Below, piece after piece: positions 49,670 to 58,002 of a stretch of 64,000 nucleotides of DNA (the first letter of the stretch is position 1; the number at the start of each line of letters is the position of its first letter). This DNA is from Brachionus manjavacas (taxonomy: Eukaryota > Rotifera > Eurotatoria > Ploima > Brachionidae). The position numbers were made by a program, and so were the translations under genes. The notes below the pieces were generated by a model. That model was not told where the DNA came from. It did not search any database and saw only the letters and a list, made by a program, of their open reading frames with translations. The stretch is taken from contig JAHQIY010000001.1 of assembly GCA_019054805.1 (NCBI GenBank), positions 8,384,501 through 8,448,500 of the forward strand. The letters run 5' to 3'.

Positions 49670-51476
49670 CTAATTGTAACATCCATTTTCAATCGGCGTT
49701 TCATTCAAACCAAATTCTTTCATACATATTTTATAGATTTCAAATCTTTTTCTAGCTTTATCTTGATACGGTCCATTGCATTCAAGACCACCATTGATTG
49801 CCATGGTGCTCGCACCGAATCGACCATTTTTTACGTCAGAACGAGAACCAACATTTGCCTTCCAAAACCAAAAAGCTGTAGCCCAAGCAATTTCATCATT
49901 ATTGGCTACTTGATCTGGATCTCTCAAAAGTCTATCATCTCCATACAAAGCTTGACTTGCAGCCTCATAATTATAATTCCAAGACTTAAAAAAATATTAT
50001 TTTTGAATACTGTTTACAACAATAAATTTACCAATTGAATGTATCCTCTTCCATAGTAGCTTTTACCAGGATATCTACTTGTTCCATAAACACCTGGACA
50101 CTTAGTTTGCATACATGCATATTCTTCAGTCGCTTTTAAGCCATCAGATTCCCACAAAATTTGGGACAAAAACATAGCGGCTTCTCTTTTTGTGGTTATG
50201 CCTCCTTTAGGACCAAGTTGGGTGACGAAATTTGTATATTTTTCCATAGATGGTCTGTCATAACCGGCACCCATTATAGCTCGTGAAAATTCTTCATATG
50301 TGATCAAATTTCCATTTGTGTTTATTGAAGTAGTTAGAACAATAACGGGCTTTGTAGTAGTTGCCTCGGTTGGTTTTGTTGAGGTGGCTACAGTTGGTTT
50401 TGTTGAGGTGGCTACAGTTGGTTTTGTTGAGGTGGCTACAGGTGGTTTTGTTGTTTTGATTGTGGTTTGAATTGGAAAAAATCCACTCGGAACACCATTA
50501 CAGCTAAAATTTAATAAATTAAACCCCAATCGAAAACACAATTAATGCAAGGATTACAAGCTTGTTGAGCAGAATTTGTAAACGATCCCGCCAGCAGCAT
50601 GGTATGAACCACTCCCTCCATTTGTTATTTTTTCCAGGCATCCACGAGTTAAAACTAAAATTTTTTATTCCAAAAAAAATAAAAATTAAATTTTATTTAC
50701 TGTTTCCTTTATCGGGATTTTTCCAAATAGCACAAGCACCTGAACATGATACCAAAGAACCAACTAAAGCTCTGAAATCCATGGGATCGCTGCAAGCCTT
50801 TTACAAAAAATATCACAATTTAATAAATTTTTATCATTTTTTTTACTCTATTTGTTGCATCACACTCATAGCAAAGAATTTGATTTTTGACAGGCTTTTT
50901 AGTTCTAACTTGGTTTGTTTTTGTGGTCAATTTTGCAGCCATAAAGGTTGGATCCCCCGGATTTATGACAACTATTGGTTGATTAGAAAATTTATAATTA
51001 CATCTATTAATTAAAAATTTAAAGCAAAAATAAAACAATTTTTTAAATTCTTACAAATCCGTATTACAAAAATCAATTTCATTCGAATTACGTTCAAATT
51101 CATCATAAGAACATCCGCGATAGATAACTTAAAAACAAAATTAAAGTTAAATGTATTTTTATGTCTAAATTTTTACTATTATCGCTCTTCCAAATTTTGC
51201 ATGGACCAGTACATGGCTCTTTGTTGTATTTAAGCATGTTAACATCCGGAATTTCTCCGCAAGCCTTTTTGAATTTTATAAATTATTTTTTAATCAAAAT
51301 AAGTTTGATCTTACGTCCCAGTTGGAATTACAGGAATAACAATATATTGCATCTTTAAAGGAGAAAAGTCAAAATTATAAATATGATTAAATTATTTGAC
51401 TACCTGCTCCAAGATTACAAAAAATTGAGACATAAATGAGGACAAAAATAAATTTAGTAAATTTTGAATATTTCAT
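49670..51476 (-). CDS. Secreted chitinase: two Ly6/uPAR three-finger domains plus GH19 domain (gene A)
   Basis: Nine exons on the minus strand (51476-51404, 51352-51315, 51264-51177, 51127-51055, 51003-50847, 50797-50701, 50654-50558, 50503-50032, 49984-49670) join in phase to 469 aa. Residues 1-24 are a signal peptide. Two three-finger domains (about 25-92 and 135-210) each show CYxC...AC....C.G.C..W....RGC...C...CN. A Thr/Pro linker of 8-residue TKPTVATS repeats follows. The GH19 domain (about 260-469) has FLSQILWESDGL (likely acid Glu326), EEYAC, YYGRGYIQLSWNYNYEAAS, WATAFWFWK and AINGGLECNGP. GH19 enzymes hydrolyse chitin with inversion. Three-finger domains usually bind proteins or membranes, so here they may act as adhesion or targeting modules (inference). 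It is a tandem paralogue of the next gene. Five of eight acceptors are AAG. Confidence 0.88.
50372..50453 (-). repeat. 24-bp tandem repeat in the chitinase linker
   Basis: Three full copies and a partial copy of a 24-bp unit (GGTTTTGTTGAGGTGGCTAC plus AGTT on the plus strand) encode repeated TKPTVATS. The copies are nearly identical, so recent slippage is likely and copy number may vary between alleles. Confidence 0.85.
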
Positions 51477-51825
51477 TTTGTTTTTTGAATTTTAAGAGAA
51501 AATTCCGAAATCATTTTGACTTTAAATATTGCCGTTACAGTAAATAAAATTATCTCAAGACAATACATTTATTTGCAGAGACACCTTTTTTAAATAAAAC
51601 TAAAGTGAATTAAGTAGAATTAAATAATTTTTTTAGTAAAAATGAGTCTTAAAAACATGTTCGATTTAATTAAATTTTCAGAATTTGCTTTTCATTCGGG
51701 CTCATTTATTGATTTAAGTTAAGTAATTATTAAACAATATGAAGACACTTGTGGAATATTTGACTAATTTTTAGAGTCAAAAGACAATTTTGCAAAATAT
51801 TTATTTGAAAATAATTTTGAAAAAA

Positions 51826-54800
51826 TTAGTTATAACATCCATTCTCAATTGGATTTTCGCTGACGTGGAATTCGCTTAAAATTACTTTATAGACTTCAAA
51901 TCTTTTTATTGCCTTTTTCTTGTGAGGTCCATTGCATTCGAGACCACCGTTAATAGCCATTGTGCTTGAACCGAAATAGCCTTTTTTCACTTCACCACTA
52001 GAACCAACATTTGCCTTCCAGAACCAAAAAGCTGTTGCCCATGCATATTCATCATTTTGAGAAACAAGATTAGGATTTTTTAAAAGCCTATCATCACCAA
52101 ATAAAGCACGACTAGCAGCTTCATAATTGTAGTGCCATGACTTATATTTTTTAAATATGATTTAATTAAAAGTTTAGAGAAAAAATAAAAACCAAAAAAA
52201 AATAAAATTTAAAAAGAAATTACTAGTTGAATATAACCCCTGCCATAATAGTTATTACCAATGTAACGACTTGTTCCATACAATCCCGGACATCCAGTTT
52301 TAATACACGCATATTCAGATTTTGCCTTTAAACCATCTGATTCCCACAAAATTTGCGCCAAAAACATCGCTGCTTCACGTTTTGTTTTGATGCCTCCTTG
52401 AGGTTCTAATTGAGTGACAAAATTAAAGTATTGTTCATTAGTAGGTAGATCATAGCCAGCTTTTGTAACTGCATTGCTGAATTCTAGATATGTGACTAGA
52501 TAATTTTTATCAAAATGTGTCAAAGGTTCTTCGAATGTTGTAGTTTTTTCGATAACACTATTCGTTTCTTCTTTATGTGAAGCTACCAGTGAAATACCCC
52601 CGTCAATATTGCACCTGAATAAAATTAAAATTAAATTTTTATTTTTGCTTGTTCACTGTAGTGCTCGATTTAACTCAAGTTAGTGCGGGCGTACCGTATT
52701 TTCTTTTTAAGAGATCTATGCGATTTTAATCCAAGCTATAAATGAAGGATGTCAAATAGATCTTTATCATATTAAAATAATAAATAATAATAATAAAAAA
52801 ATATCATTTAAAGTTAATTTTTAGTTGCTTTTTTTCAAGAAACTGTCAAAATTTTCAAAAAGTACATGAGAAAAAAAACTTTATAAACAAATAAGAAATT
52901 GCAAATTTAATTCTATTACTAATTTCAAATTTTAAAAGAAAATTTTTACGAGTCGGGACTTAATGTCAATTTCAAAATCGGTAGATATTAAAAAATTGTT
53001 TTTATCTTAAGATTTTCTAGATTAATTAAATTAAAAATTGATTTTCTTGCAAAATTGAGATCAAGTAGAACAAAAAGTGTTTATAAACAGCTTTTTAATT
53101 TCTACAGAAATATAAAAAATAATAGTTTAATAATAAGAATTGTTTTAAATCCTAGCAGTTTTTTGATGATTTGCTTCAATCTTCATAATAACGTTTTATT
53201 TTTATTTAATTCACTCAGATTGTTAGGTAATCAATTTTAAATTCATAAAAAAATTAAATATTTAAAGAATTGATTTAAGAAATTAAAGGAATATTTAAAA
53301 TACCGCCTATAATAGCAATGTAAAAATAGAATTAACTTAAATTTTTTATCAATTTTAGTGCTTAAATTAAATTATATATTTATAAATTGACAAATAAGGC
53401 ATCCTACTCAATTTTTTTGTCATTCAAACCACTAGTAAAATTTCTATAAAGTGAAAGATGATATAGGTTTAGCTGAATCTCAATTTTTTTTCGTACGTTT
53501 AAAGAGGAGACCTAAAAGAATTGTTTAAATGTATTAAGAACTCTGCTTGAAAAAATCCTAATCTCAAATGTAACTCACTAGCAGCTGATGGCCCAGCAAG
53601 TGGTTTACGAGGACACAAACAAAGATTTAGTAAGCAATTTTTGAAGACAAAACAACGTGATAATTTCTTCACTAATAGAGTCGTCAAGAACTAGAACGAG
53701 TTACCTCCTGGAATTATCAGTGCCTTAAACAGCTTTAAATTCCAATAGGACAAACATATGGAGCGAAAAAGAAATACTAAAATGTTATCTCTGAATAGTT
53801 GAATTATTTTCTCTTGAAGTTGAGTATTGCATATTTATTGAAGTCTAAATCATATTTTTTGCAGAAAATATCTATCATAGCGAAACTACATCTAGTATCG
53901 CTCTGCAGGTCTCCATTAAAAATAATAATAATAATTATAAGCTACAACAAGTTAACTGTAGAGCAAGCTATTGCTTACTATATGTAGCAATTATGCATGT
54001 AATAATGGGTCTGTTTTTTTAAGAATGCGTCTCCATTCCGTTTTTTCAGGAATAGCACCTTTCACTTGAGCAAGAACCGCTGTAAGATATCTTATATGCT
54101 AAATTTTCAAAATTTTATAAAAAAAGCCTTTTTTCTATTTAAGCATTAAAAATATTGGTAATTTACTTTAATCGTTTTTCAAATGGATAACAAAGTTTAT
54201 TATTTAAATATTTTATCAAATTTTAAATAGCAAATCTTTAATTATCACATAGAAAATATGGCTTACTAAAAAATTTTAGGGTTAGTTCAAAAAAGGATTA
54301 TTCTTTTTTTAAATTCTAAGGTCGTTATTCAACTACATGTTCAATTTATTTACCCATTTTTTTACTATAATAGAAAAATAAAATTTAAAATTTTTTTAGA
54401 AACAACAATGAAAAAATAGTTATTTGGTTCTTTGATAATGTTTTGTAATTTTAGATCCGCTTAATTTTTATTCATTCTGTTAAATTTTATTAAAAACGAG
54501 AAAATTTTGATGATGCGTCACGAAAAGATAAAAAAGAAACCAAAACAATAATATAGAAATTTAAACGAAAATTATTGATTTGAAGCTAAAAAAAATGATA
54601 AAAAAAAATTTGATGTAAAAAAATAAAAAATAAAGTATAAAAGGTACAAAACAGCTTTTTATTTTGTAATTATCAGTCCATGATTTTATCCTAGATACTA
54701 GCAAAAAAACAATATTTAATACTCACAGATTTGTAGAGCAATAATTATAAATGAGCCCATTTTTGTCAAAGTAGATACCTGATGTTCCATTTATAATTTG

Positions 54801-57800
54801 AGTTGAGCAACCTCTGTACAAGACTAAATGAATCAATTAAAAGGTATACATATTTTTTTAATTATTTTGTACGATTTTTATCCCAAGGATTATACCAGGA
54901 AACGCAAACTCCCACACATTCAACTGTATTGTGCTTAATTTTGTCTAAATTTGGTGGATTTCCGCATGCCTTACAAAATGAAATGTTTATTAGCCAAAAA
55001 AAGATAAAAAATCTTACTGGCCATCGAGCATTACAAAAATAGCATGTAATAGATTTTGTATCTGATTCGGCCAAAGATTGGTAATTTTCAAAGGATTTTG
55101 TAGAATTTGGCAAAGTAATAGATGATTTCACTTCCAATTCAACAGTAATATCATAGTAATTTATTGAATCGTAATCATCACAATTTTCAATTTCGGTATC
55201 ATTCTCATCATCAATTTGATAATCGGAAGCATTTAATTCCAAAAAACTTGACTTCAAAATAGCTCTTCCTTCCGTTTGAATGTTCATTGTTGAATTTTTT
55301 TTGGGTATTTCAGTGGTAGTAGCAATCGCTTTGGTCGAAGATATATTTAAAGAGACGTCATTACAAAAATCGCTTGAGCATACATAATAGTCTAAATCTT
55401 TTAAATCATTCAAAATTTTTAGACTTGAAATATTTTTTAAACAGCCTCTGTAAAGAAGATTATTATCAAGCTGATTGAACCATGCTACACACACACCATT
55501 GCATTCAACAACACTAAATTTTAGCTCCTTTAAATCTGGAGGATCAGCACAAGCTTTCCAGCGCTCATTACAAAAATAACACTGTATTGTGTCTAAATAT
55601 AAAATAATTTTAGGGCTTATTTTGAAAAATTAAAGAAAAAAAAGTTATTAGCAAAAAAAATATTCTTCCCTGTTTTGTTACCAGGTGGTCACCAATCCTG
55701 TGACCAAAAAAAATTCCAGAATTAAATAAAAGTTAGGATATACAAAAAAATATTAATTTAATTTTTGTGATTTATTTTTAAACCTCTCTCATCCTCAAAA
55801 AAGCCAACACATTATGAACACTCATTAATATTTTTTGTTGCCACTATAAGCTGTCTTAACTTCTACCTGTACATCTCCAGATATCTCTGGGAGCTCTTTT
55901 GAGATTTTTTGATAAAAACTCGATTAGGACATAGAATCACCTAAACATGGTTAAATTGGTCATTAAATTAGTAATTCAAATGTCTAAAAATGTAATCCAA
56001 GTCTAGAGTTTTCTAAATTTATTCACAATTAATTTTTATTCAGTTTTTTTATTAATTAAAATTTAATAACCACAAATTTTTAGTAACCTTCATTTTTTTA
56101 TGGAAAGAAAAAAACTGTTCGTAAAATTTTGTTACCAGTGTGTTTGTATACAAGGGAAGACTCCAAAAATATCTGAAATTTTTTATCGAGTTTTTTTCTC
56201 AAAAAAGATAAATAATTTTCTGATATTATCTTTTTTTAAATCATTTCCAATATATTAATTGAAAAATTATAAATAAAAAAAATTTCACGTGCTGTAAAGA
56301 TGGGTGTTCATAGCCAACGTACAGTCAAACATTTTAAACCTCATATAAATTTTATTCTAAATTCTATTTTATTTTAAACATCATTTCCTTTTTTTTTCAT
56401 TTCACAAAGGAAACTCTTAAAATATATGATTTGATATTTAAATGAAAAAGTTTGACTGCAATAGATTTTTTTCTAACACAAATTTTAAAATTGCTTGACA
56501 AATTAATTTAAATAGACAAAAATTTGTTTAAATTTGCATTGTTAATCTGAAAGAAGAAGTTTCGACTTCAATTTTTTCAAGAAGGAATGAACATGTGGCC
56601 ATTTGTAAGGAGATAATAGTGCATGATTAAATGATAATTTAGTCAAAAAAATCACACAAGAGAAACTATTCAAAATCATTAACTGATAATAATTTTAAAG
56701 ATAAAACTATTCTACTAATTCATTTTTTTTAAATAAATTCTATAACAAAATTTTATAACGACGAGGACGAGTATTAAAAACAAATAAAACAAGTGAAACT
56801 AAAAAAACAACGCATAAAACTTAATCTGACAAAACATTTTTTAACATGCTAATCAGTAATTATAACTTTTATATGATTTAATTTTTGATTTGTCCATGGG
56901 ACCTAAACTTTAATTAAAAAAAATAAAAATAAAAAATTGTTTATAAAAAACAATTTAGTCAATTTTATAAAAAACAATTTTAAAAAAGACTCATGAATTT
57001 TGGTACAAAAAAAAACAAAATATTAAAAATGCCAAAGTTTAAGTTCTTACGGACCAAAACATATTGTAGTAAATGAAACATCCTTTGTACCACCAAAAAA
57101 CTGATCCTGCAAAACACTGGGATAAATCTGCAAAATTCAAAAAATTGCGAAAATTCATAAAGCCAAAGCCACTCATGAGTTCAGATCTGAGTGAAGTCAA
57201 ATGAATGTAAAAAATATCGTTTTTGCTTTAAGTGTTGTGTTTCTATTTGAAACCTTATTTGAGTTTATCACTAAATCAATACTCTGGATGGTTGCAACCA
57301 TTTATGCAAAAAATGAAACTTGGTTTAAGAAAAGCGATTATCTTTTTGTGGGAATATATCAAAACTCGAGAGTCAAGGGAACTAATACATGAGTAGAAAT
57401 AATAAAAAAATTCTGTTATGAGCAGCACTAAATTAATATTTAAAAATTAAATTTATTAAATAGCACTTAATTGGTATAAAAAAATTAAATTACTCGATTG
57501 AATAACTGAAGAATTTGAAATTGTAATAGATTCAATTGTTAATGATTCTTCATTTTCGTAATTAACATTGCACCTAAAATTAATTAAATTCAAAAATTAA
57601 AATCAATAAATTTTTAAAATTTTACAAGTCGAAATAACAATATTTGTAAATTATTCCGTTTTGATCTACAAAAAAACTAGCATTATCTGGCAAAAAAAAA
57701 TTAGAGCAATCTCTATAAATTTCTTTAAAAAAAAATTAATTTTTTTTGATAAAATCGTTTTTTATTATTTTTACTATTATCATTTTTCCATACTCTACAT

Positions 57801-58002
57801 GGACCACGACATATTTCTTTATTATATCTTATCAAACTGAGGTTTGGTATTGCCCCACAGGCCTTTAAAATAAATTGAAAATAGCATTAGTACAATTAAA
57901 TAAAATTACCTCCCAATTTGAATTGCAAGCATAACAGATTAAAGAGTTTATTTTAACAATTGTTGAAATAAATAAAACATAAAAAAATATTATTCTGTTC
58001 AT
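51826..58002 (-). CDS. Secreted chitinase: three Ly6/uPAR three-finger domains plus GH19 domain (gene B)
   Basis: Nine exons (58002-57910, 57862-57775, 57722-57626, 57573-57494, 55592-55018, 54969-54873, 54823-54727, 52614-52224, 52140-51826) join in phase to 610 aa. A signal peptide (1-20) is followed by three-finger domain 1 (about 21-95: ICYACNSNWE, ACGAIP, CRGPCRVW, YRDCS, YCYFDLCN) and domain 2 (about 120-190, in one exon, CYFCNERWKACADPPD ... RGC ... CSSDFCN). A long acidic Ser/Thr/Asn-rich linker precedes domain 3 (about 300-377, CYFCNARWP ... RGC ... YCSTNLCN). The GH19 part (about 390-610) has FLAQILWESDGL, YYGRGYIQLSWHYNY and WATAFWFWK. The last two introns match gene A in position and phase. 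Two introns are long (1.9 and 2.1 kb); the second contains a LINE scrap. No second signal peptide interrupts the chain, supporting one gene. A split into two transcripts at the 1.9-kb intron cannot be excluded. Confidence 0.82.
53495..53990 (+). mobile_element. LINE 3' fragment inside a chitinase-gene intron
   Basis: Plus-strand reading gives RGDLKELFKCIKNSA, RGHKQRFSKQFLKTKQRDNFFTNRVV and LPPGIISALNSFK, the usual CR1/Jockey-type C-terminal blocks, with stops. It ends near an AATAATAATAAT tract (about 53921-53934). It lies antisense to the host gene. Confidence 0.8.
55593..57493 (-). other. 1.9-kb intron of chitinase gene B
   Basis: The flanking exons join in phase across it. Inside are weak inverted similarities (for example TGAACACTCATT near 55838 against GGGTGTTCA near 56306) and an unsupported plus-strand open stretch at 57201-57392. 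Confidence 0.5.

Follow-up and report, generated by a model that had tools for sequence, protein, structure and literature searches.

Domains of the three-finger fold, familiar from snake toxins and CD59, have mainly been described as ligands, receptors and toxins, and the question raised by the present locus is what such domains would do on a chitinase. Two neighboring genes in a 64,000-nucleotide stretch of Brachionus manjavacas contig JAHQIY010000001.1 (positions 8,384,501 to 8,448,500; here the window, whose numbering is used for both genes) each encode a signal peptide, an array of three-finger protein domains (TFPs) and a glycoside hydrolase family 19 (GH19) domain, as proposed in a first-pass annotation of the DNA. 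The favored reading, with a probability of roughly 0.6, is that the genes are tandem paralogues encoding secreted, soluble and active GH19 endochitinases in which the TFP array acts as a targeting module. It combines features read directly from the DNA (architecture, a shared exon, conserved glutamates, the same order in other Brachionus species and lack of a C-terminal membrane segment) with predicted secretion, activity, targeting and substrate.

Gene models and the shared exon

Genes A and B are arranged head to tail, both on the minus strand. B (58002-51826, 58002 being the first base of its start codon) is upstream of A (51476-49670, 49670 being the last base of its stop codon), and 349 bases separate the B stop from the A start, so that the tandem arrangement first proposed is borne out. 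The product of gene A has 469 amino acids (signal peptide, TFP1, linker, TFP2, Thr/Pro repeat linker, GH19) and that of gene B has 610 (signal peptide, TFP1, TFP2, long acidic/Ser/Thr linker, TFP3, GH19); signal peptides were judged from hydrophobic N-termini, without a dedicated program. Each gene has nine exons:

51404-51476, minus: gene A exon 1, signal peptide (gene model, hydrophobic N-terminus)
51315-51352, minus: gene A exon 2, first finger of TFP1, CYSCNSNWD (gene model, module alignment)
51177-51264, minus: gene A exon 3, middle of TFP1 (gene model, module alignment)
51055-51127, minus: gene A exon 4, TFP1 from RGC up to, but excluding, the closing CN (gene model, alignment)
50847-51003, minus: gene A exon 5, closing CN of TFP1, linker and start of TFP2 (gene model, alignment)
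50701-50797, minus: gene A exon 6, middle of TFP2 (gene model; QVR above cut-off over TFP2)
50558-50654, minus: gene A exon 7, TFP2 from RGC up to, but excluding, the closing CN (gene model, Pfam)
50032-50503, minus: gene A exon 8, closing CN of TFP2, Thr/Pro-rich repeat linker and N-terminal half of GH19 with both catalytic Glu
49670-49984, minus: gene A exon 9, C-terminal half of GH19 and stop (gene model, GH19 search)
57910-58002, minus: gene B exon 1, signal peptide and first finger of TFP1 (gene model, hydrophobic N-terminus)
57775-57862, minus: gene B exon 2, middle of TFP1 (gene model, module alignment)
57626-57722, minus: gene B exon 3, TFP1 up to, but excluding, the closing CN (gene model, module alignment)
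57494-57573, minus: gene B exon 4, closing CN of TFP1 and linker, followed by the 1901-base intron (gene model)
55018-55592, minus: gene B exon 5, whole intronless TFP2, long acidic/Ser/Thr linker and start of TFP3 (DUF753 above cut-off)
54873-54969, minus: gene B exon 6, middle of TFP3 (gene model, module alignment)
54727-54823, minus: gene B exon 7, TFP3 from RGC up to, but excluding, the closing CN, followed by the 2112-base intron with a repeat
52224-52614, minus: gene B exon 8, closing CN of TFP3, linker and N-terminal half of GH19 with E467 and E476
51826-52140, minus: gene B exon 9, C-terminal half of GH19 and stop (gene model, GH19 search)

All 16 introns are GT-AG and keep the frame throughout, in agreement with the exon phases noted earlier. 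Thirteen are 46 to 54 bases long, one has 83 bases, and the two longest (1901 and 2112 bases) are both in gene B. Introns of phases 0, 1 and 2 interrupt A-TFP1, A-TFP2, B-TFP1 and B-TFP3, and none lies inside B-TFP2. The intron preceding exon 8 is in phase 2 in both genes (54 bases in A, 2112 in B), and the frame of exon 8 itself stays open from the Cys-Asn that closes the final TFP, across the linker and into the catalytic half of GH19. Misjoining of separate TFP and GH19 genes in the models could be imagined from the two long introns of gene B, the longer of which contains an interspersed repeat, but wrongly joined neighbors are disfavored because a single exon holds the TFP end and half of GH19 in both genes, and same-order proteins are recorded, as predictions, in two other Brachionus species. 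Separate genes are therefore very unlikely, and the fusion is, as far as the gene models tell, real at the DNA level.

The repeat in intron 7 of gene B (53501-54005) has genome matches at 69 to 92% identity. With 40 of 156 candidates scored, at least 48 further matches were counted, many of them fragments of a single copy. Intron 4 of this gene contains a short frame on the minus strand (57040-57130; CFAGSVFWWYKGCFIYYNMFWS), followed by a donor-like GTAAGA; the frame is perhaps a TFP exon relic or a product of chance. A missed exon in this 1901-base intron was rejected by comparison with a partial B. calyciflorus protein (P0121), whose linker at this place is roughly similar in length; the intron itself was not searched further.

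Catalytic domain and three-finger domains

The GH19 profile PF00182 (cut-off, 25.5 bits) matched both products (A, 67.4 bits, E 2.1e-18; B, 58 bits, E 1.5e-15), and the fold is that of GH19. Both contain the WESDGL and YYGRGYIQLSW motifs reported initially, the latter split by a phase-0 intron (L|SW). In a PDB search, E467 and E476 of B aligned with the acid and base positions of a moss GH19 enzyme, and gene A has a Glu pair at the same spacing. Both catalytic Glu residues (E317 and E326 in P0001, a B. plicatilis relative) are invariant in 10 of 10 hand-picked GH19 sequences. The GH19 domain of B, the only one of the two searched against the PDB, was closer to chitinases (best, 2.8e-19) than to endolysins (best, 1.7e-8). 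In addition, A and B share a Cys pair (EYAC....CPG), assigned by eye to loop 3, and a Cys pair bracing this loop is given as a mark of GH19 chitinases versus endolysins in PMC8547705. By these marks the domains resemble those of chitinases rather than endolysins, and A and B are most likely secreted endochitinases with catalytic activity. The two GH19 domains are 72.6% identical, with nonsynonymous divergence (dN) of 0.20 and synonymous divergence (dS) of about 1.6, whereas the three A/B TFP pairs give no usable dN/dS because dS is saturated in two and 2.7 in the third.

The N-terminal regions contain two eight-cysteine modules in A and three in B. In an alignment of 12 modules (five from the window and seven from relatives), the eight cysteines, an Arg two residues before the sixth cysteine and the closing Asn are invariant, and the residue between this Arg and the cysteine is Gly in 10 of the 12, consistent with the RGC/CN pattern described previously. 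The cysteine motif arose in 2 of 20000 shufflings of A residues 25-215 and in 0 of 20000 of B residues 25-385. A domain search, suggested by the first-pass annotation as a check, returned a three-finger family above cut-off in each product besides GH19: PF17064 QVR in A (27.8 bits versus a cut-off of 27.3, in one stretch over TFP2) and PF05444 DUF753 in B (32.4 versus 24.7). DUF753 reached 19.3 in A, below the cut-off, and no separate QVR stretch covers A-TFP1. Among the relatives, P0001 passes the QVR cut-off and the B. calyciflorus protein P0002 is narrowly below it (25.3 versus 27.3). The QVR (Quiver) and DUF753 families and a metagenomic protein (P0122) have eight-cysteine modules like those of A and B.

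A different disulfide-rich fold has nevertheless to be considered. The classical Ly6 pattern has ten cysteines and ends in CxxxxCN; the modules end in CxxxxCN but have eight cysteines, and the absent pair is probably that of finger III. Eight-cysteine three-finger forms exist in the superfamily, e.g., short neurotoxins. Low-confidence structure models of the TFP part of relatives gave matches of intermediate Z to uPAR, C4.4A and CD59, and in Foldseek this part had no match reaching E 0.001 (best E, 0.11 for the first model and 0.034 for the second). The second model was weaker than the first, with unrelated folds in its Foldseek list at E >1. Against another fold, QVR and DUF753 pass the Pfam cut-offs and the listed structural matches are all three-finger proteins as far as their titles tell, so that a fold other than three-finger is highly improbable.

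In the host genome (114 Mb, 61 contigs), the QVR profile found 10 places, compared with matches in 0 of 14 control genomes; none of the 10 lies within the window, probably because introns split the TFP domains of A and B. The DUF753 search was uninformative, as the host genome and all 14 controls were without matches. At L013:3920-2668 (minus strand), a TFP-like module (weak, E 0.013), for which a closing-CN exon was not found, adjoins a long Pro/Gln/Tyr-rich repeat region.

Possible role of the three-finger array

The three-finger modules had been suggested to tether the enzyme to proteins or membranes. A hydropathy scan detected no C-terminal membrane segment or glycosylphosphatidylinositol (GPI) signal in A or B (best mean in the last 40 windows of 19 residues, 0.07 and 0.21, respectively). 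A GPI or membrane anchor was therefore rejected, and A and B are probably soluble and secreted because their C-termini are not hydrophobic. Tethering by the chain itself is thus not supported, whereas binding to a membrane protein could still achieve it.

Position, linker and module number make the TFP array look like a targeting module. Two or three TFPs on a linker occupy the slot of the carbohydrate-binding module (CBM) in many GH19 chitinases, the fingers would keep the enzyme attached to chitin-bearing material or to a chitin-associated protein, and the linked GH19 domain would cut chitin by the usual inverting two-glutamate mechanism. GH19 chitinases with CBM18, CBM5/12 or LysM modules, such as the plant class I and IV enzymes, resemble A and B in the catalytic domain, the two Glu residues and an N-terminal module with linker, but the accessory module of A and B is a TFP array, and no known CBM (CBM18, CBM5/12 or LysM) was found among their Pfam matches up to E 10. 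According to PMC8547705, binding modules of GH19 enzymes support antifungal activity and binding of crystalline chitin, no known CBM was found in the Metazoa group CHIT 15, and one metazoan GH19 sequence with CBM5/12 appears in the S6 figure legend. The architecture of A and B suggests that metazoan GH19s, largely reported without known binding modules, carry modules missed by searches for known CBMs.

There are two readings of what the fingers would hold. The array may bind a specific protein (matrix, receptor or cuticle) and anchor the enzyme indirectly in cis, with no affinity for chitin, much as GPIHBP1 holds lipoprotein lipase and uPAR holds urokinase. Most of the top structural hits for the TFP part, obtained with the low-confidence models, are TFPs that bind proteins (uPAR, C4.4A, GPIHBP1, CD59 and TGF-beta family receptors), and the module beside Pro/Gln-rich repeats at L013, weak as its match is, hints at use of such domains outside chitinases; however, a shared fold is silent on the ligand. 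Binding to a protein partner is a serious but tentative alternative. Less probable is that the TFP array itself binds chitin or a glycan, which would make it a new type of CBM on the toxin/Ly6 fold, recruited in Brachionus. Chitin binding through aromatic finger residues was predicted for Drosophila Retroactive, and work in Tribolium favored an indirect role (both PMC3561106). Retroactive resembles A and B in its TFP fold and link to chitin biology but has a single ten-cysteine TFP, predicted membrane attachment and no enzyme (PMC3561106). TFPs in cis with a glycoside hydrolase, in a duplicated gene pair and in an order that recurs in Brachionus, offer a direct test of whether this fold aims an enzyme at a polysaccharide, and such enzymes bear on the chitin role of insect three-finger proteins such as Retroactive.

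The enzymes could act on the chitin of the animal itself, in egg shell, trophi or gut lining. The importance of Retroactive for cuticle chitin (PMC3561106) and an abundant B. plicatilis transcript with peritrophin-A domains (PMC1925144) are compatible with this role, but the named close relatives of the GH19 domain are scattered among springtails, tardigrades, a mite, fungus gnats and fungi, which use of foreign chitin fits equally well or better. Action on the animal's own chitin is accordingly rather doubtful, and microbial or dietary chitin, in the gut or in defense, would be the more likely substrate of the proposed enzymes.

Relatives, rarity and other GH19 genes

The same domain order was found in predicted proteins of two other Brachionus species. 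Full-length matches to gene A with this order are P0001 (B. plicatilis "chitinase 4-like"; 86% identity) and P0002 (B. calyciflorus GH19 protein; 62%), whose names make no mention of the TFP part. By segment, A and P0001 are 79.1% identical in TFP1, 97.4% in TFP2, 95.4% in GH19 and 68 and 74% in the two linkers; for P0002 the values are 73, 56, 83 and 30 and 60%. Both are probable orthologues of gene A. The partial P0121, which lacks GH19, matches the TFP part of B (first TFP, 75% identical), and no B. plicatilis relative of gene B was found in a protein search with the TFP part. The A/B duplication is probably older than the split of B. manjavacas and B. calyciflorus, because A-type and B-type TFP arrays both occur in the latter. 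P0122 has a hydrophobic N-terminus and three eight-cysteine TFPs on Thr-rich linkers but no GH19, and possibly resembles the TFP array before fusion. A third search of proteins, run with the TFP alignment, yielded only two further sequences, both short and metagenomic (P0123 and P0124).

Among 120 listed GH19 relatives of A (69 further matches exist, and many of those listed are without names), the TFP cysteine pattern occurred in two, both from Brachionus. By hand count, a second precomputed Pfam domain was present in 30 (LysM, PF01476, in 12) and absent from 90; relatives not of the A/B type whose sequences were inspected have LysM or short Cys-rich modules N-terminal to GH19. No Ly6-GH19 architecture emerged from literature on TFP/Ly6 proteins, GH19, chitinases and rotifers, judged mostly by titles and abstracts with few subscription papers covered, and the main text of a rotifer lectin survey (PMC8878817) contains no mention of Ly6, three-finger or GH19, in line with the claim that the fusion is undescribed. 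The sequence itself is not new, because public databases already contain the B. plicatilis protein, with precomputed matches for both Pfam domains.

GH19 had been characterized as mainly plant, bacterial and nematode. This may hold for the family at large, but the close relatives that have names come from springtails, tardigrades, a mite, fungus gnats, a stink bug and such fungi as Coemansia and Smittium, and no nematode, plant, named bacterium or bdelloid is among the names in the 120. A quick tree used 94 of 121 GH19 domains (from 125 sequences, two without a GH19 match and two too short), with 27 rows omitted by name (24 Coemansia, one Martensiomyces and two Bradysia); 29 of its 91 inner branches are open. 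The mite Leptotrombidium adjoins the rotifer GH19 clade with a support of 81, not starred. A scan of genome contigs for a bacterial source, based on two short motif patterns, produced 39 pattern matches and five confirmed loci (L014 to L018), with 28 to 30% identity over about 107 to 142 residues or 42 to 56% over 36 to 45. A recent bacterial donor is not seen, because the named relatives from animals and fungi are closer than these loci; the two-motif scan may miss some, and unnamed metagenomic relatives may have any origin.

The GH19 profile matched 0 of 14 control genomes. The four other GH19 loci examined in the B. manjavacas genome showed no TFP in the reading frames displayed near GH19. 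L008:4177-4992 has WESDGL, as in A and B, but a short, different Cys-rich N-terminal module, like its relatives P0006 and P0009, with which its GH19 forms a separate branch (97, starred); its GH19 domain is 93% identical to that of P0009 (B. plicatilis "chitinase 4-like"). Four further Pfam domains are listed for P0009 beside GH19, of helix-turn-helix types, which are probably a gene-model error. L009 (3937-5950) seems to encode a Cys-rich N-terminal module, GH19 and a von Willebrand A domain (Pfam VWA, 1.8e-41), and L010 (3875-5913) and L011 (4251-7866) seemingly have the same order by eye. The GH19 piece of L009 is nearest to endolysins in the PDB (7.5e-15; best chitinase, 1.9e-12), and the enzyme is possibly antibacterial.
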